From positions 1 through 36,256 of the forward strand of contig CANCCE010000002.1 of NCBI GenBank assembly GCA_947374505.1: a stretch of DNA of 36,256 nucleotides, written 5' to 3'. Numbering within the stretch: position 1 is the stretch's first letter; every line of letters starts with the position of its first letter. Positions 21,736 to 32,191 of this stretch are shown piece by piece. This DNA is from Comamonadaceae bacterium. Lineage in GTDB: Bacteria; Pseudomonadota; Gammaproteobacteria; Burkholderiales; Burkholderiaceae_C. Under the pieces are notes generated by a model. The model was given only the letters and a program-made list of their open reading frames with translations. It ran no database searches and was not told where the DNA came from. Position numbers and translations under genes: made by a program.

Positions 21736-23097
21736 CTACTCATCCCGCATCAACAGTGTTCGATTGGCACGCAGCGCCAGCAAGGTGCAGGCAACCCCCG
21801 ACAGCAGGTAAATGCTGACGGCCACCAGGCCAAAGCGTGCCGACAAACCGAGCGCGACCAGCGGCGCAAAAGCTGCGCCTATCAGCCAGGCCAGATCGGT
21901 CGTCAGCGCAGCACCGGTGTAGCGTAAGTGAGGCAAGAAGTTGGCTGTCACAGCACCGGCCGCCTGGCCATAAGACAGGCCCAGCAAGACAAAGCCAATC
22001 AGGATGAAGGTGTCCTGTCCGATGGTGCCACCGCCTAGCAACATGGGCGCAAACAAAGCAAACACGCCAATCAAAACAGCCAGCAAGCCCAGCGTACTGC
22101 GCCGTCCGATGCGGTCGGCCAACAGGCCACACACAGGCATGGCGCCAGCCGCCAGCAAAGCGCCAACTATTTGCACAACAAGGAACTCACCGATCAATTG
22201 CTCCGAGTACAACATCACCCAAGACAGCGGAAACACCGTGACGATGTGAAACAGGGCAAAACTGGCCAGCGCGGCAAAGGCGCCTATCAACAAGTTGTTG
22301 CCTTGGGTGCTGATCAGTTCGCGCAGGCTGCAGGGTTGCAGTTCATTGGCATCCAGCTCGCGCTCGTACTCACGCGTGACCACCAGGCGCAGGCGGGCAA
22401 ACAAGGCCACCACATTGATGGCGAAGGCGGCAAAGAAAGGGTAGCGCCAGCCCCAGTCTAAAAACTCCGCGCTGCTCAAATTGCTCCAGAGATAAGCAAA
22501 CAGACTGCAGGCAATCAAAAACCCCAGCGGTGCGCCCAGCTGGCCCAGCATGGCATACCAGCCGCGCCGGTCTTCGGGTGCGTTCAAGGCCAACAGCGAT
22601 GGGAGTCCGTCCCACGAGCCGCCAAGCGCCAAGCCCTGGCCGATTCGGCACAACGCCAGCAAGGCAATGGCGCCGACACCCAACACCTGGTAACTTGGCA
22701 ACAAGGCCATGCCGGCGGTGGCGCAACCCAGCAACAACAACGCCAGGCTGAGCTTGGCGCTGCGGCCGTAACGGCGTTGTAGCCACATGCCAGCGACCGT
22801 GCCCAAAGGTCGCACGACAAAGGCGAGGGAAAACAAAATAAACGCGTAGAGGGTGCCCTGCAGGCTGTCCACAAAAGGAAAGAACACCGCGGGAAAGACC
22901 AGCACCGAGGCGATGCCAAAAACAAAAAAATCGAAATACTCAGAAGCCCGCCCGATCACCACGCCCACAGCGATATCGCCCGGGGCGACGCTGTCGCTTG
23001 ATGGCGCAAGGCTGTGGCGACTGGGCTGTTGACGGGTGTCAGGACCGACAACGCTGGCTGGACAGAGGTTCATGGTGGGTGAGGCAGTGTTTTGCAT
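21736..23097 (-). CDS. MFS transporter, metabolite:H+ symporter (MHS)-like
   Basis: About 12 hydrophobic segments; GRASEYFDFFVFGIASVLVFPAVFF, RPLGTVAGMWLQRRYGR, GLLADRIGRRSTL. Confidence 0.85.
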   Translation of the reverse strand: MQNTASPTMNLCPASVVGPDTRQQPSRHSLAPSSDSVAPGDIAVGVVIGRASEYFDFFVFGIASVLVFPAVFFPFVDSLQGTLYAFILFSLAFVVRPLGTVAGMWLQRRYGRSAKLSLALLLLGCATAGMALLPSYQVLGVGAIALLALCRIGQGLALGGSWDGLPSLLALNAPEDRRGWYAMLGQLGAPLGFLIACSLFAYLWSNLSSAEFLDWGWRYPFFAAFAINVVALFARLRLVVTREYERELDANELQPCSLRELISTQGNNLLIGAFAALASFALFHIVTVFPLSWVMLYSEQLIGEFLVVQIVGALLAAGAMPVCGLLADRIGRRSTLGLLAVLIGVFALFAPMLLGGGTIGQDTFILIGFVLLGLSYGQAAGAVTANFLPHLRYTGAALTTDLAWLIGAAFAPLVALGLSARFGLVAVSIYLLSGVACTLLALRANRTLLMRDE

Positions 23098-23108: not shown

Positions 23109-23122
23109 TTGATTCAAATCAA
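23109..23122. promoter_or_regulatory. FNR/ANR-type box 1
   Basis: TTGATTCAAATCAA, perfect match to TTGAT-N4-ATCAA; 11 nt upstream of the MFS ATG (minus strand). Confidence 0.8.
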
Positions 23123-23148
23123 TTTACCTTGGGCAATATGTCCAATCG

Positions 23149-23162
23149 TTGATTTGAATCAA
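23149..23162. promoter_or_regulatory. FNR/ANR-type box 2
   Basis: TTGATTTGAATCAA, perfect match to TTGAT-N4-ATCAA; exact reverse complement of box 1, 40 bp centre-to-centre; upstream of cyoA. Confidence 0.8.
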
Positions 23163-23223
23163 TGAAGCTACAGTAATGATCAATTCGCAATTAGCGTTTA
23201 CCCTTTGTAGCTGGTCACCAAGC

Positions 23224-24276
23224 ATGTCACTCCCACCGGATAGTTTTCGAACCTTAAAACGCTTGGCCCTGTTGCTGGCGACCTTGCCTTTAGCGGCTTG
23301 CAGCACGATTGTGATGAAGCCCTTCGGCGACATCGCGCAGCAGCAATCACAGCTGATTGTCACCGCCGTCGTGCTGATGCTGCTGATAGTGGTGCCGGTG
23401 ATCGCCCTGACGCTGGTGTTTGCCTGGCGCTACCGTAGCACCAACCAAGCGGCGCCTTACACGCCGGAGTGGGACCACTCGACCCGCCTTGAGTTGCTGA
23501 TTTGGGGCGCCCCTTTGCTGATCATCATTGCGCTGGGCGCAGTGACCTGGATCAGCACCCACAAGTTAGACCCCTACCGTCCTCTGGAACGGCTGGACGC
23601 CCATCGGCCACTTGTCGCTGGTGTCAAACCTTTCGTCGTTGAGGTCGTGGCGCTGGATTGGAAATGGTTGTTTGTTTACCCTGAGCTGGGCATTGCTACT
23701 GTGAACGAGCTGGCAGCTCCGGTAGACCGACCCATCGAATTCAAAATCACGGCGTCTACGGTGATGAATTCTTTCTATATTCCAGCGCTGGCAGGACAGA
23801 TTTACGCCATGCCCGGCATGCAAACTCAGCTGCACGCGGTGATCAACACAGCCGGCGTGTATGACGGCTTTTCGGCCAATTACAGCGGCCGGGGCTTTTC
23901 ACACATGCGCTTCAAGTTTTTGGGGTTGGCACCCGCAGATTTTGAGCGCTGGGTGCAAACCACCAGAAGCGCTGGCGGTGAGCTGGCCCGCCAGGAGTAT
24001 TTGAAACTCGAGCAACCCAGCGAAAGCGAACCGGTGCGGCGTTACGCCAGCGTTGACGCCGGGTTGTACCAAGCCATTTTGAACCGCTGCGTCGACAGCA
24101 ACAAGATGTGCATGGGCCAAATGATGGCCATCGATGCAGCTGGCGGTCTGGGCAAGGGCAGCATCGACGGTTTGTCGAGCCAACCTTGGCGAGATGTCCA
24201 GCGCACTTACGTCGCTGCCTTGTGCACGCCTGACAACCTCAGCGGCGAAGGCCCTGTGGCCTATTTAAAAAAATAA
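23224..24276 (+). CDS. cyoA: Quinol oxidase subunit II (CyoA-like lipoprotein)
   Basis: Lipobox LPLAACS, two N-terminal TMs, SANYSGRGFSHMRFKFL (no CuA Cys ligands, so quinol type), CMGQMMAID. ATG 23224 (MSLPPDSF...) preferred; the in-frame ATG at 23176 is possible. Confidence 0.92.
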   Translation: MSLPPDSFRTLKRLALLLATLPLAACSTIVMKPFGDIAQQQSQLIVTAVVLMLLIVVPVIALTLVFAWRYRSTNQAAPYTPEWDHSTRLELLIWGAPLLIIIALGAVTWISTHKLDPYRPLERLDAHRPLVAGVKPFVVEVVALDWKWLFVYPELGIATVNELAAPVDRPIEFKITASTVMNSFYIPALAGQIYAMPGMQTQLHAVINTAGVYDGFSANYSGRGFSHMRFKFLGLAPADFERWVQTTRSAGGELARQEYLKLEQPSESEPVRRYASVDAGLYQAILNRCVDSNKMCMGQMMAIDAAGGLGKGSIDGLSSQPWRDVQRTYVAALCTPDNLSGEGPVAYLKK

Positions 24277-24288
24277 CCGAGATCTCAC

Positions 24289-26289
24289 ATGTTCCCCGTT
24301 CAAGATATTTTGAAGCTTGTGTTTGGCCGCCTAGGCCCGGACGCCATACCGCACGACCCGATTGTTTTGGGCACCCTTGCGATGGTGATTCTGGGCGGCT
24401 TGTCACTGTTTGTGGCGATGACCTACTACCGCGTCTGGGGGACGCTGTGGCGCGACTGGATGACCAGCATCGATCACAAAAAAATTGGCATCATGTATAT
24501 CATCTTGGCGGTGGTGATGCTGTTGCGCGGTTTTGTTGATGCGCTTCTCATGCGCGCCCAACAAGCCATGTCATTCGGTGACAACGCCGGTTTTTTACCG
24601 CCTCACCATTACGACCAAATTTTCACGGCACACGGCGTGTTGATGATCTTTTTCGTTGCCATGCCAGTCATCACGGGCTTCATGAACTATGTGGTGCCCT
24701 TGCAAATCGGTGCGCGTGACGTGTCGTTTCCGTTCTTGAACAACTTCAGCTTCTGGATGACCGCCAGTGGTGCGGTTCTGATGATGATTTCTCTGTTTGT
24801 CGGCGAGTTTGCGGCTACGGGCTGGCTGGCTTATCCACCGCTGTCCGGCATTTTGCAGAGTTCGGGAGTCGGCGTTGACTACTACATTTGGGCGCTGCAA
24901 ATTGCCGGTGTCGGCACCTCGCTGTCGGGGATCAACTTGATCGCCACCATCATCAAAATGCGCGCCCCTGGCATGACCATGATGAAGATGCCCATCTTCA
25001 CTTGGACGGCACTGTGCACCAATGTCTTGATCGTCGCGGCTTTCCCCGTGCTGACGGCTGTGTTGGCTTTGCTGACACTGGACCGCACCGTCGGCACCAA
25101 CTTCTTCACCAATGACCTCGGCGGCAACGCCATGATGTACGTCAACTTGATCTGGATTTGGGGCCATCCCGAGGTCTATATCTTGGTTTTGCCTTGCTTC
25201 GGTATTTTCTCCGAGGTGATTTCAACCTACAGCCACAAACGCCTCTTTGGTTATGCCTCCATGGTTTACGCCACTGTCGTCATCACCGTGTTGTCGTACG
25301 TGGTTTGGCTGCACCACTTTTTCACCATGGGCTCGGGTGCCAGCGTGAACGCTTTCTTTGGCATCACCACCATGATCATCTCGATCCCGACCGGCGCGAA
25401 GATATTCAACTGGCTGTTCACCATGTACCGCGGCCGCATTGTTTTTGACGTGCCGATGCTGTGGTCGATTGGTTTCATGGTCACTTTTGTGATCGGCGGC
25501 ATGACCGGTGTGTTGTTGGCCGTGCCGGCGGCTGACTTCGTGTTGCACAACAGCTTGTTCCTGATTGCCCATTTCCACAACGTGATCATTGGCAGCGTTG
25601 TGTTTGGCATGTTTGCCGGTATCAATTACTGGTTTCCAAAAGCCTTCGGCTACAAGCTGGATGCGTTTTGGGGCAAGTGTTCATTCTGGTTCTGGCTGGT
25701 CGGCTTCTACATGGCCTTCATGCCGCTGTATGTGCTCGGTCTGATGGGCGTGACCCGCCGCATGAGTCATTTTGAGGATCCATCGCTGCAAATCTGGTTT
25801 CAGGTGGCCGCCTTAGGTGCCGTGCTGATCGCCATTGGGATTGCCTGTTTCTTGATCCAACTGGCCGTGAGCTACCGCAACCGGGAGCAGCTGCGCGACG
25901 CCACCGGCGACCCATGGAATGGCCGGACGCTTGAATGGTCAACGTCCTCGCCACCGCCGGAATACAACTTCGCCTTCACACCCGTCGTGCATGAACTCGA
26001 TGCTTGGCACGACATGAAACAGCGCGGACACCAGCGGCCGGTTGCCGGCTTCAAAGCGATTCACATGCCAAAAAACACGGCGGCCGGTTTTGTCATCGCC
26101 ATGCTCTGCGTTGTCATCGGGTTTTCTTTGACCTGGCACATGTGGCTGGTGGCCGGGCTGTTCTTCGCCCTGGTGCTGGTGACGGTTGTTGTGCACACCT
26201 TCAACTACCAACGCGACTTTTATATTCCGGCAGACCATGTCACCGAGATTGAAAACCTGCGCACGCTCTCCCTTGCGGCGCAGGCCTGA
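24289..26289 (+). CDS. cyoB: Quinol oxidase subunit I (heme-copper oxidase, CyoB-like)
   Basis: [76 protein letters not shown]. Confidence 0.97.
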
Positions 26290-26315: not shown

Positions 26316-26939
26316 ATGCAGACTTCTACACTTTTGGCGGCCGGTCACCCGGTACGCTTTTATGACGATGGTGCTCACCATCCCCAGCAAGGCACTTTGC
26401 TGGGATTCTGGATCTACCTGATGAGCGACTGCCTGATCTTTGCTGTCCTGTTTGCTGTTTATGCGGTGCTGGGTCGCGGTTATGCGGCCGGTCCATCGGG
26501 CGCTGATTTGTTCAACTTGCCGCTGGTGGCGGCCAACACAGCCTTGCTGTTGTTCTCCTCCGTCACCTATGGCTTGGCCATGATCGGCATGCAGCATGGT
26601 CACAAAAAGGCAGTGCTCGGTTGGCTGGCCGTCACGGCTTTGTTTGGCTTGGGCTTTCTGAGCTTGGAGCTGTTTGAGTTCTCGCATTTGATCCATGAAG
26701 GTGCGGGCCCGCAGCGCAGCGCTTTTCTATCGTCATTTTTCACCTTGGTTGGTACCCATGGTTTGCATGTCACCTTCGGCACGATCTGGTTGGTGACCTT
26801 GATGTTTCAAGTCAGTCGCTTTGGATTGACCCTTGAGAACAAGCGCCGCTTGATGTGCTTGTCGATGTTCTGGCACTTTCTGGATGTGGTCTGGATTGGC
26901 GTCTTCACCTTTGTTTATTTGATGGGAGTGTTGCCATGA
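26316..26939 (+). CDS. cyoC: Quinol oxidase subunit III (CyoC-like)
   Basis: [64 protein letters not shown]. Confidence 0.94.
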
Positions 26940-27331
26940 GCGAGCACCATATTGCGTCCGACGACCACAGCGATCACCACAGCGATGACGACAGCGGCTA
27001 CCACGCCAGCGTCAAAGGTTATTTGACCGGGTTTTGCCTGTCGGTGGTTCTCACCGCGATCCCCTTTTGGCTGGTGATGGCCAAGGTATTGCCCTCGTCG
27101 GGCATCACGGCCTTGGTGGTGCTGGGATTCGCCGCGCTGCAAATCGTCGTCCACATGGTTTACTTTTTACACATGAACACGCGGGTCGAGGGCGGCTGGT
27201 CGATGCTGGCCCTGCTGTTCACCGGGGTGCTGGTGCTGATCATGTTGTCTGGGTCGATTTGGGTGATGTACCACCTGAACACCAACATGATGCCGGTGCA
27301 CGACATGACGGAAATGCGTAACATGCCCTGA
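26936..27331 (+). CDS. cyoD: Quinol oxidase subunit IV (CyoD-like) with His/Asp-rich N-terminus
   Basis: From ATG 26936: [48 protein letters not shown] ... [11 protein letters not shown]; overlaps the cyoC stop (ATGA). Confidence 0.93.
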
Positions 27332-27334
27332 TCC

Positions 27335-28120
27335 ATGAGCAACGACACCGACCGCCCCCCGCCAGCTGCCAAGCCCTCATGGCTGTTGGCTTGGCTGTTG
27401 TTGGCTGCGGCCTTGTTTGTCGGCTTGCTGGCGCTGGGGGGCTGGCAGGTTCAGCGGCTGCAGTGGAAGCTGGCATTGATAGAACGGATTGAGCAGCGGG
27501 TACACGCCGCAGCAGTGGCGGCACCCGGCCCGGTCGAATGGTCCGCCATCAGCCGTGAATCGAATGAGTACAGCCGGGTTCAAGTCTCAGGGCGCTTCGA
27601 CCACGGCCGGGTCACGCTGGTGCGCGCCAGCACCGTGCTGGGCCGTGGTTTTTGGGTGATGACGCCGCTGCAGACCCGCGCTGGTTTTTGGGTGCTGGTG
27701 AACCGCGGCTTTGTGCCTGAGGCTGACAGTGCGCAACTGGCACGCTTGGGCCCTGCTGAGCCCCAAGTCATCAGCGGTTTGTTGCGGCTCAGCGAGTCTG
27801 GCGGCAGCTTTCTCCAGCACAACGATGCGGCTTCAGGTCGTTGGTACTCGCGAGACGTGCCGGCGATGGCGGCCAGCGTGAAACTCGACGCAACTTCCGT
27901 GGCGCCTTACTTTATTGACGCGGTGGCCTCGTCCGATACGCAGGCCTGGCCGCGCGGCGGGCTGACAGTGCTCAGCTTTAACAACCACCACATTGTTTAT
28001 GCGTTGACCTGGTTTGCGTTGGCGGCCATGTTGGCGTCTGCTGCAGCTTACCTTTGGTTTTCCGAGCGACAACTGCGCAACTTGTTGGCCAGTGGCAAGC
28101 AGGTGGCTTTACGTGCGTGA
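27335..28120 (+). CDS. SURF1-family cytochrome oxidase assembly protein
   Basis: LLALGGWQVQRLQWKLALIERIEQRVHA, VLVNRGFVP, VLSFNNHHIVYALTWFALA; two flanking TMs. Confidence 0.9.
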   Translation: MSNDTDRPPPAAKPSWLLAWLLLAAALFVGLLALGGWQVQRLQWKLALIERIEQRVHAAAVAAPGPVEWSAISRESNEYSRVQVSGRFDHGRVTLVRASTVLGRGFWVMTPLQTRAGFWVLVNRGFVPEADSAQLARLGPAEPQVISGLLRLSESGGSFLQHNDAASGRWYSRDVPAMAASVKLDATSVAPYFIDAVASSDTQAWPRGGLTVLSFNNHHIVYALTWFALAAMLASAAAYLWFSERQLRNLLASGKQVALRA

Positions 28121-29459
28121 ACCGCTGCAACTGTTGCCACTGCAGGCTGATGATTTGAGCGGCGGCGATGTCACTGAAATTCTGGCGGAGCGCAATAATT
28201 TACTTCAGCTGATTCAGCTGCGCTGGCTGGCGGTGGGTGGCCAGCTGACCACGATTTTGGGTGTTCAGTTTGTCTTGGGGGCCCGGCTTCCACTGGCCGA
28301 AATGTTGACCCTGGTCGCTGCGCTGAGCCTGTTCAACTTGGCCAGTTGGTTGCGCTGCCGTACGGCTGCGGGCGAAATCGTCAATGGCGAGTTGTTCACC
28401 GGCTTGCTGGTCGACGTGGCGCTGCTGAGTGCCTTGCTTTATTACAGCGGCGGCATTGCCAACCCTTTTATCTTTTTGTATTTGCTGCAGGTGGCGGTCG
28501 GCGCCGTGCTGCTCAAACCACGCTACATCTGGGCCATGGTGCTGCTGACCAGCGGCTGCTTTGTGCTGCTGACGCTGTGGCACCGGCCCTTGATCCTGCC
28601 AGACCTCGTGGACCTGACACTGTCGCTGCACTATATTGGGGGGTTGGTGGTTTGTTTTGCGCTGAATGCAGCGCTGCTGGTGATTTTCATTCACCGCATC
28701 AGCAGCAACTTGCGCCAGCGTGACGCCCGACTGGCCGATTTGCGCCAACGCGCAGCGGAAGAAGAGCACATTGTCCGCATGGGCTTGTTGGCCTCGGGCG
28801 CGGCGCATGAGCTGGGCACGCCGCTCGCCACCTTGTCGGTGATATTGGGTGACTGGGCGCACCACCCGCCCTTGGCCCATGACCTGGTCTTACGCGACGA
28901 GATCAAGCTGATGCAATTGCAATTGCAGCGCTGCAAGACCATCGTCAGCGGTATTTTGATGTCGGCGGGCGAGGCCCGCGGCGAGGCCTCGGTGGCGACC
29001 ACGTTGCATCTTTTTCTGGACCAACTGGTGGACGAATGGCGCAGCGCTCGCCCGACGCAAGTGCTCGACTATCAGCGCAACGACCTGCTGGACAGACCGA
29101 TTGTGTCTGACTCGGCGCTCAAGCAGATGGTGCGCAATGTGCTCGACAACGGCATTGACGCAGCGCCTTTCATGCCTTTGCAGCTGCGGGTGGAGTGTGC
29201 TGACGACTGGCTCTCGCTGAGTATCCGTGATGCGGGCCCGGGCTTTAGCTCTGACATCCTGGCTAATTTCGCCAAGCCCTACTATTCCACCAAAGGCCGA
29301 CCCGGTAGCGGGCTGGGACTTTTTTTGTCGGTCAATGTGGCGCGTACTTTGGGCGGCAGGATCGACGCCCGCAACCTGGCAGGCGGTGGCGCCGAGGTGG
29401 TGATCAAACTGCCATTGGCCGCGCTGACCCTGCGCGAAAGGACAGAGCATGGAAACTGA
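28113..29459 (+). CDS. regB: RegB/PrrB/ActS-type redox-sensing histidine kinase
   Basis: Six-TM N-terminus with quinone-site motif YYSGGIANPFIFLYLLQVAVGA; H-box GAAHELGTPLATLSVILGDW; HATPase GRPGSGLGLFLSVNVARTLGG. GTG 28113 (VREPLQLLPL) preferred over 28014; overlaps the SURF1 3' end by 8 nt. Confidence 0.88.
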   Translation: MREPLQLLPLQADDLSGGDVTEILAERNNLLQLIQLRWLAVGGQLTTILGVQFVLGARLPLAEMLTLVAALSLFNLASWLRCRTAAGEIVNGELFTGLLVDVALLSALLYYSGGIANPFIFLYLLQVAVGAVLLKPRYIWAMVLLTSGCFVLLTLWHRPLILPDLVDLTLSLHYIGGLVVCFALNAALLVIFIHRISSNLRQRDARLADLRQRAAEEEHIVRMGLLASGAAHELGTPLATLSVILGDWAHHPPLAHDLVLRDEIKLMQLQLQRCKTIVSGILMSAGEARGEASVATTLHLFLDQLVDEWRSARPTQVLDYQRNDLLDRPIVSDSALKQMVRNVLDNGIDAAPFMPLQLRVECADDWLSLSIRDAGPGFSSDILANFAKPYYSTKGRPGSGLGLFLSVNVARTLGGRIDARNLAGGGAEVVIKLPLAALTLRERTEHGN

Positions 29460-29985
29460 ACGTCGGCTGCTGATTGTCGAAGACGACGATGCTTTCGCCT
29501 TGACCTTGAGCCGCTCGTTTGAGCGGCGCGGCTACCAAGTCAAACGCGCTGCGGGTCTGGTCGAGGTGCCCGCTTTGCTATTGACGCACCGGCCCCAATA
29601 CGCGGTCGTCGACTTGAAACTGGCGGCGGGCGCCTCCGGCCTGAGCTGCGTTCAACTGTTGCACGCGCACGATGCGCTGATGCTGATTGTGGTGCTGACC
29701 GGTTACGCCAGCATCGCCACGGCGGTCGAGGCGATCAAGCTGGGCGCGCGGCATTACTTGGCCAAGCCAGCCAACACCGACGACATCGAAGAGGCTTTCG
29801 CCCGCGCCCAAGGCGATACGGCGGTAGCGCTGACCACGCGGACAACATCGGTCAAGACCTTGGAATGGGAGCATATCCATGAAGCCTTAGCGGCTGCCGA
29901 CTTCAATATTTCAGAGACCGCAAGGCGTCTGGGTATGCACCGCCGTACCTTGGCTCGGAAGTTAGAAAAGCAGCGCATCAAATAA
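29449..29985 (+). CDS. regA: RegA/PrrA/ActR-type response regulator
   Basis: Receiver LLIVEDDDAFALTLSRSFERRGYQV, AVVDLKL, VVLTGYASIATAVEAIKLGARHYLAKPA; Fis-like HTH HIHEALAAADFNISETARRLGMHRRTLARKLEKQ. Confidence 0.92.
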   Translation: METERRLLIVEDDDAFALTLSRSFERRGYQVKRAAGLVEVPALLLTHRPQYAVVDLKLAAGASGLSCVQLLHAHDALMLIVVLTGYASIATAVEAIKLGARHYLAKPANTDDIEEAFARAQGDTAVALTTRTTSVKTLEWEHIHEALAAADFNISETARRLGMHRRTLARKLEKQRIK

Positions 29986-30190: not shown

Positions 30191-31102
30191 TCAAGTCATT
30201 TGATTCCAATTGCGCAGGGTGATCTGTTTGAGCAAGTGCTGCTTGAACGCTAACGCCAAGGGTGACAACTTCTTGCTTGCAGGGTGGACGATATGCCAGG
30301 CTGAGGGCAGGGGGAAGCCATCAACATCAATGACGCTCACACCGTGCTCCTTCTGACGACCATGCAGGGCATGCCGGGAAATAACCCCAATACCGAGCCC
30401 ACCAGCGACCGATTCTTTCACCGCTTCATTGCTTCCCAACTCAAGCCGGACATCTGGACGGAACCTCATCTTGCGAAAGTACTGGTCAGCAGCCATACGC
30501 GTCCCAGATCCTTTTTCTCGCAAGATGAAGCGACGTTCTGCGAGTTCAGGCAAGGCCACGAGTTTGCGTTTGGCCAGCGGATCTGAGGTCGGTGCAACCA
30601 ACACAATCGGATTTTGCATAAAGACTTCGTCACCCAGATCCATGTCAGTTGGTGGCATGGACATGATGTAGATATCATCGAGATTTTCGCGTAGACGATG
30701 AACCACGCCATCACGATTGAGGATCTCCAACGAAACGTCGATCGCCGGATACTGGGTGCAAAAGCTGCCGATCAAGCGGGGCATGAAGTACTTAGCGGTA
30801 CTGACCACGGACACCCTTAGCTTGCCTTGTGACAAGCCTTTGATGGCATCGACGCTCTGCCCGAATGAATCCCACGCTTGCGCCACAGAGCGGGCCGTCG
30901 CAGCCAACTCCTTACCGACATCAGTCAGATAGATTTTCTTGCCGACAACTTCGTAAAGTGGCAGTCCCACCGACTGCGTGATCTCCTTCAACTGCATAGA
31001 GGCCGTCGGCTGAGTCACATGCATCGCCTTGGCCGCGGCACTGACGCTGCCGGTCTCTGCCAATGCCAAGAAAACCCGGAGTTGTCGGAACGTGACGTTC
31101 AT
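30191..31102 (-). CDS. LysR-family regulator, CbbR/CmpR-like
   Basis: FRQLRVFLALAETGSVSAAAKAMHVTQPTASMQLKEITQSVGLPLYEVVGKKIYLTDVGKEL; effector domain; divergent from an SbtA-like permease. Confidence 0.88.
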   Translation of the reverse strand: MNVTFRQLRVFLALAETGSVSAAAKAMHVTQPTASMQLKEITQSVGLPLYEVVGKKIYLTDVGKELAATARSVAQAWDSFGQSVDAIKGLSQGKLRVSVVSTAKYFMPRLIGSFCTQYPAIDVSLEILNRDGVVHRLRENLDDIYIMSMPPTDMDLGDEVFMQNPIVLVAPTSDPLAKRKLVALPELAERRFILREKGSGTRMAADQYFRKMRFRPDVRLELGSNEAVKESVAGGLGIGVISRHALHGRQKEHGVSVIDVDGFPLPSAWHIVHPASKKLSPLALAFKQHLLKQITLRNWNQMT

Positions 31103-31114
31103 AGCTTTTTATCT

Positions 31115-31158
31115 ATACATAAGTATTTAAGAATTGATTTTACTAGATAGTCTTAAAT
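31115..31158. promoter_or_regulatory. Inverted repeats in the lysR/sbtA divergent region (candidate LTTR operator)
   Basis: ATAC-N4-GTAT (31115-31126) and ATTTAAGA (31125-31132) / TCTTAAAT (31151-31158). Confidence 0.4.
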
Positions 31159-31186
31159 TTATAAAATTTGCAGAAGGAGAACCTTT

Positions 31187-32191
31187 TTGCAAAACTTACT
31201 CGATCCCGCCATTCTTTTTTTCGTCATCGGCGTAGTGGCCGGAGCGGTCAAATCGAACCTCGAAATACCCCCCGCCATCTCTCGATTTCTGTCTTTGTAT
31301 CTGCTGATGGCCTTGGGGCTGAAGGGAGGCTTCGCTCTATCGCATTCAGGACTGACAGCCAACGTTGGCGTTAGTCTGGCGGCCACTATGTCACTGGCCA
31401 TCGTCATTCCATGGCTAGGCTACTGGTTCCTGAGGCGTTTTGTTTCCGGCTTTGACGCCGCAGCTGTCGCTGGGACTTACGGGTCCGTCAGTGCGGTCAC
31501 TTTTGTGACGGCTGTTCAGTACTTGGAAAATCAGCAAGTGGCTTACGGTGGGCACATGGCCGCAGGGATGGCCTTGATGGAGTCACCGGCCATCATCATG
31601 GCTGTTGTCTTTGCCAATACGCTCAGGCAAAAGGCGTCTCCAGAACCGATCGTCTTGGGAGGCGGCGTTGCGGCCATGGGCCGTCAAACGATCAAACGAA
31701 CGGTTTCGATTGGAAAAATCCTGCATGAGTCATTCACGGACGGCGCTCAGTTGTTGCTTCTCGGTGCCATGGTCGTGGGTTTGATCACGGGGGATGCGGG
31801 GCAGACGGCCATGCAACCTTTCTCCGGCGACCTGTTCAAAGGGATGTTGTGCTTCTTTCTGCTGGACATGGGTCTGATGGCTGCGCGCAATTTACCGCAG
31901 TTGCGCGGGAAATCTCCCGTGCTGATCGCTTATGCCGTGTTGGGACCGATCTTTCATGCCAGTCTTGCCCTGGGTCTGGCTTTTCTGTTGAACCTGCCAG
32001 CCGGCGATGCTGCCTTGCTCATGGTACTGGCTGCCAGCGCCTCGTACATTGCAGTGCCTGCAGTGCTGCGCTACGCCCTCCCGGAAGCCAATCCTTCGCT
32101 GTACTTCAGCCTGAGTCTCGGGGTGACTTTTCCGCTGAACATTCTGGTCGGGATACCCACTTACACGGCCATTGCGCAAGCGTGCCTCTGA
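31187..32191 (+). CDS. SbtA-family (formerly DUF897) sodium-dependent bicarbonate permease
   Basis: LLDPAILFFVIGVVAGAVKSNLEIPPAISRFLSLYLLMALGLKGGFALSHSG; FDAAAVAGTYGSVSAVTFVTAVQYLE; SASYIAVPAVLRYALPEANPSLYFSLSLGVTFPLNILVGIPTY. TTG start with AGAAGGAGA SD. Confidence 0.9.
   Translation: MQNLLDPAILFFVIGVVAGAVKSNLEIPPAISRFLSLYLLMALGLKGGFALSHSGLTANVGVSLAATMSLAIVIPWLGYWFLRRFVSGFDAAAVAGTYGSVSAVTFVTAVQYLENQQVAYGGHMAAGMALMESPAIIMAVVFANTLRQKASPEPIVLGGGVAAMGRQTIKRTVSIGKILHESFTDGAQLLLLGAMVVGLITGDAGQTAMQPFSGDLFKGMLCFFLLDMGLMAARNLPQLRGKSPVLIAYAVLGPIFHASLALGLAFLLNLPAGDAALLMVLAASASYIAVPAVLRYALPEANPSLYFSLSLGVTFPLNILVGIPTYTAIAQACL

Follow-up and report, generated by a model that had tools for sequence, protein, structure and literature searches.

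The stretch of DNA analysed here (the window, 36,256 nucleotides from a Comamonadaceae bacterium) contains a cytochrome o ubiquinol oxidase operon in which the structural genes are followed by a SURF1-like gene and by genes for a RegB-like kinase and a RegA-like response regulator. The operon is divergent from an MFS transporter gene, and the intergenic region carries two FNR-type sites, a palindrome and a predicted promoter:

21736 to 23097, minus strand: MFS transporter, metabolite:H+ symporter type, divergent (TIGR00883, 254 bits, below the cut-off of 443); start at 23097 or, more likely, 23073
23109 to 23122, no strand: box 1, TTGATTCAAATCAA, species-specific and a perfect match to the FNR-type pattern; centred at about -65.5 relative to the predicted cyoA transcription start
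23129 to 23145, no strand: palindrome TTGGGCAATATGTCCAA, which most relatives have as TTGGACAATATGTCCAA; centred at about -44 and probably the operator for the RegA-like regulator of the operon
23149 to 23162, no strand: box 2, TTGATTTGAATCAA, FNR/ANR-type site kept in relatives; centred at about -25.5, in the spacer between -35 and -10
23169 to 23174, plus strand: predicted -10 of the cyoA promoter, TACAGT; transcription start predicted near 23181
23224 to 24276, plus strand: cyoA, cytochrome o ubiquinol oxidase subunit II (TIGR01433, over cut-off); start chosen by conservation
24289 to 26289, plus strand: cyoB (TIGR02843, over cut-off)
26316 to 26939, plus strand: cyoC (TIGR02842, over cut-off)
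26975 to 27331, plus strand: cyoD (TIGR02847, over cut-off); start approximate, as the ORF opens at 26855 and the profile match begins near 26975
27335 to 28120, plus strand: SURF1-like oxidase assembly gene (NF050123 match, below cut-off)
28014 to 29459, plus strand: RegB/PrrB/ActS-like histidine kinase (NF033792, 217 bits, cut-off 350; HATPase_c; GGIANPF); coordinates are those of the mechanically called ORF, with the true start further in
29449 to 29985, plus strand: RegA/PrrA/ActR-like response regulator with a Fis-type helix-turn-helix (NF033791, 162 bits, cut-off 250; Response_reg and HTH_8)

The cyo operon and its divergent neighbour

Since the kinase and the regulator are the best matches but score below the curated RegBA cut-offs, we term them RegBA-like. 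The GGIANPF sequence of the kinase fits GGXXNPF, the quinone-binding motif of RegB (PMC8191878).

In most of the cyo loci that we examined, from alpha-, beta- and gammaproteobacteria alike, an MFS gene and cyoA recur as a divergent pair. Of the named relatives found, the closest was a Comamonadaceae MAG with a CyoB 97% identical to that of the window. Such neighbourhoods are known: YhjE-like MFS genes lie beside cyoABCD, mostly in the opposite orientation, their co-regulation has already been suggested, and in E. coli an active bo3 oxidase needs yhjE (PMC10588857). The MFS gene of the window is likewise a divergent member of the metabolite:H+ symporter family, a likeness of family and not of orthology; unlike the present analysis, that report names no operators.

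The start of cyoA is best placed at 23224, where ATGTCA is retained in most relatives. An in-frame ATG further upstream, at 23176, was rejected as it is not conserved in the alignment. On the other side, the preliminary description had placed box 1 immediately upstream of the MFS ATG, which fits the ATG at 23097; this codon is absent in several relatives, which have a common ATG at 23073. The predicted cyoA leader contains a conserved stretch at 23190-23215, CGCAATTAGCGTTTACCC, which several other Burkholderiales have as GTTWWCCC. A clear Shine-Dalgarno sequence was not found in the leader before the ATG at 23224.

Two FNR-type sites, one of them conserved

The two 14-mers first noted between the MFS gene and cyoA were confirmed as exact reverse complements of each other, 40 bp apart from centre to centre. 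They are the sole matches to TTGAT-N4-ATCAA in the whole window, even with one mismatch allowed. When the 150-bp intergenic region was subjected to 200,000 dinucleotide shuffles, 222 of them contained one perfect site and none contained two. The 2.74-Mb assembly has 17 perfect sites, and 14 of the 15 outside this region lie within long ORFs, so that boxes 1 and 2 make up two thirds of the intergenic perfect sites of the assembly. About 50 bp downstream of the third (L148:2001-2014) begins a universal stress protein gene, with an Hsp20 gene next to it; a universal stress protein gene is a classic FNR/ANR-type target. Two perfect FNR boxes with centres separated by 46 bp also occur in a different genome of the genus, where no cyoA was found (L011, G059:C61:11706-11765).

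We then compared ten MFS/cyoA intergenic regions of the same genus, that of the window and those of nine relatives. Box 2 was present as TTGAY-N4-RTCAA in 9 of the 10, with both half-sites held and the middle four bases variable. Box 1 was perfect in the window alone, matched at 9 of 10 positions in one sister (L110), and had decayed in, or was missing from, the remaining eight. The cyoA regulatory region of the window thus holds two perfect sites of the TTGAT-N4-ATCAA type, of which box 2 is conserved. These comparisons suggest that box 2 is very probably functional. They also bear on the notion that both boxes arose by chance because the intergenic region is AT-rich. The poor conservation of box 1 is compatible with chance, as is the location within ORFs of 14 of the assembly's 17 perfect sites, which presumably arose by chance. 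The shuffles, which never yielded two perfect sites, and the conservation of box 2 in both sequence and position argue against it, making chance extremely improbable as an account of the pair and disfavoured already for box 2.

A palindrome at a fixed distance from the predicted -10 of cyoA

The strongest and most conserved element of the intergenic region is absent from the preliminary description. It is a palindrome, TTGGRCAATATGTCCAA (23129-23145), situated between box 1 and box 2, and TTGGACAATATGTCCAA is nearly constant in all ten aligned regions. The window has GGGCA instead of GGACA, a variant also found at other cyo loci. The underlying substitution in the left half, G for A at 23133, is unique among the ten aligned regions and occurs in the same intergenic region in which box 1 became perfect. 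The palindrome has counterparts before cyoA in alpha-, beta- and gammaproteobacteria. A genus-wide scan recovered the cyo sites and missed the GGGCA variant of the window, and many of its other matches may be background.

Anchoring 58 loci on the palindrome revealed a fixed promoter geometry. A TA dinucleotide lies exactly at +32 from the palindrome centre in 52 of the 58, and TAnnnT in 43, frequencies that far exceed those at every other offset. We infer that this peak marks the -10 of the cyoA promoter. With the resulting start near 23181, the palindrome would be centred at -44, with box 2 downstream of it at -25.5 and box 1 upstream at -65.5. In 15 of the 58 loci, including those of Paucibacter, Roseateles and Pelomonas, box 2 or a counterpart matching at least 9 of 10 positions occupies exactly offset +12 relative to the palindrome centre. 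FNR-like matches at offset -14 in four loci (L034, L067, L092 and L118) were discarded as overlaps with the palindrome itself. In the 58 palindrome-anchored loci the minus strand showed no -10 at a constant spacing that would mark a mirror-image promoter for the MFS gene.

These observations allow the original proposal for the two boxes to be judged, namely that FNR binds both, cooperatively or through a DNA loop, and co-regulates cyo and the divergent MFS gene. In its favour, the two perfect sites, with centres 40 bp apart, account for two thirds of the intergenic perfect sites of the assembly and would flank a shared operator. However, outside this species box 1 is not conserved, the MFS side has no fixed mirror-image -10, and a spacing of 40 bp is very short for a DNA loop. 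With no conservation of box 1 in the nine relatives, the paired or looped arrangement lacks comparative support; we consider it quite unlikely and dropped it. What survives of the suggested coordinated oxygen control is its part at the oxidase: box 2 is conserved at a fixed place in the cyoA promoter, and a role in repressing the oxidase at low O2 is plausible.

Co-occurrence of the palindrome with RegBA-like genes

The palindrome, scored at 9 of 10 positions or better, was present in 40 of the 41 loci with a kinase and regulator linked downstream vs. 3 of the 32 loci without them. Two of the three exceptions that have a palindrome and lack the pair (L023 and L085) are matches at other positions, and one of the 40 (L091) was scored on the wrong site, with a fitting variant, GGGCAAAACGCCC, present at the expected place. 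Fisher's exact test gave p = 7e-16 for this co-occurrence, a value that is inflated by shared ancestry and that we do not use as a probability. On the CyoB tree about four well-supported independent changes could be counted, of which three agree with the link between palindrome and regulator and none opposes it, a result that is not significant. A survey of 16 genomes of the genus found just one strong RegA-type regulator, the one present in the 11 cyo carriers.

The core of the palindrome, GRC-N5-GNC, fits the published RegA-family sites as far as their patterns are quoted in PMC5506826, and it matches the R. capsulatus RegA pattern quoted there, SSGNVRDNHYSNCSS, at 13-14 of 15 positions. The operators of RegA, PrrA and RegR that are quoted in that source are degenerate, in contrast to the palindrome, which is nearly invariant, has AT-rich flanks and keeps a fixed spacing to the -10. 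Our literature search, which covered open-licence papers, found none that names the palindrome at 23129-23145. Taken together, the comparative data suggest that the operon's RegA-like regulator probably binds this palindrome.

One genome of the genus has a GGACAAATTGTCCA palindrome (G058:C1:2992621-2992634) several hundred bases ahead of a sequence that matches a gene for cytochrome oxidase subunit II and is distinct from cyoA. A second oxidase may thus be among the targets of the RegA-like regulator.

The candidate regulator at box 2

A search of the 2.74-Mb assembly, which is 70% complete, found no FNR gene. Sister species have an FNR with the cysteines and the ExxSR helix, and true FNR proteins are encoded in nearly all well-assembled relatives. 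The 3-kb hemN-fnr stretch of one sister is 82-91% identical to those of three other relatives and has zero match in the assembly, so that the whole region, hemN-fnr-ccoG, is missing from it. An assembly gap is therefore the simpler explanation for the absent FNR, and we did not accept a real loss of the gene. Thus, the FNR homologue that the preliminary description had called for was not seen in this assembly, and its relatives make its presence in the organism plausible.

The assembly does encode another CRP/FNR-superfamily protein, on contig C136, with an ExxSR-type recognition helix and without an N-terminal cysteine cluster. Box 2 might then be bound by a family member with the same half-site, be it this cysteine-less type or an NO sensor of the DNR/NnrR type, the sites of which resemble those of FNR. 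We regard this as unlikely, as the C136 gene sits among polysaccharide genes with no tie to respiration, and true FNR is nearly universal in the well-assembled relatives.

A proposed two-signal model for the cyoA promoter

From the geometry, the conservation and the co-occurrence described above, we infer which protein binds which site and with what sign, and arrive at the following model. The RegB/RegA-like pair encoded in the operon would probably sense the quinone pool, and the RegA-like regulator, bound to the palindrome at about -44, would activate cyo. An FNR/ANR-type dimer on box 2, at about -25.5 and between the -35 and the -10, should block RNA polymerase, which makes repression plausible and would shut the oxidase off at very low O2. 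Box 1 would be a recent species-specific addition, or a weak site that was strengthened, and could either act on the MFS gene or have no effect on it. We consider it reasonably probable that the cyoABCD-SURF1-regBA-like operon is controlled in this manner, by RegA-like activation from the palindrome combined with FNR/ANR repression at box 2.

The sign of the FNR effect could also be the opposite, with FNR at box 2 activating the promoter directly or by aiding the RegA-like regulator. FNR usually activates from near -41.5 or further upstream, and box 2, at -25.5 from the predicted start, lies between the -35 and -10, away from those positions. Activation therefore seems distinctly improbable, even though the homologous cyoABCDsurF1regBA operon of Sphingopyxis granuli TFA rises without O2 and depends on Fnr proteins (PMC7713065). 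That operon has the same make-up as that of the window, and its autoactivation by RegBA has been proposed. It differs in that its Fnr box lies within the operon, upstream of regB, with none seen upstream of cyoA, and we found no operator sequence given for it (PMC7713065). Since it is induced without O2 and has no Fnr box before cyoA, the sign of regulation could differ in the window.

Repression from box 2 has parallels among FNR/ANR-repressed low-affinity oxidases. Anr represses Cyo in P. putida (PMC3621253), and FNR/ANR-type repression acts on cio-1 in B. cenocepacia, where cyo itself showed no expression and no Anr effect (PMC11742914). These systems share with the window an FNR/ANR-type site at a quinol oxidase promoter and an expected repression at low O2; they differ from it in that the site of the window lies in the promoter spacer beside a predicted RegA-like operator. 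In B. pseudomallei, RegA and FNR both strongly affect cyoABCD (PMC8191878). The cyoA promoter thus seems to be a neat new case of redox control of a known type and not a new kind of switch.

The part worth following up is the palindrome with its fixed promoter geometry. The published sites of this regulator family are degenerate, and the palindrome provides a clean candidate operator, which makes the model easy to test. The model gives a widespread quinol oxidase a concrete two-signal scheme for its expression, with quinone redox state read through the operon's RegA-like protein and O2 through FNR. A broader reading, on which our confidence is evenly balanced, is that the cyo-linked RegBA-like systems of alpha-, beta- and gammaproteobacteria form a dedicated subgroup, marked by an operator of its own that hardly varies (approximately TTGGACAAAWYGTCCAAT, at -44, with the -10 following after 32 bp), and that one Burkholderiales lineage put an FNR repressor site into the spacer.

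Directly after the oxidase operon, at 30191-32191, a CbbR-like LysR gene on the minus strand is divergent from an Sbt-type bicarbonate transporter gene, a pair that hints at carbon fixation.
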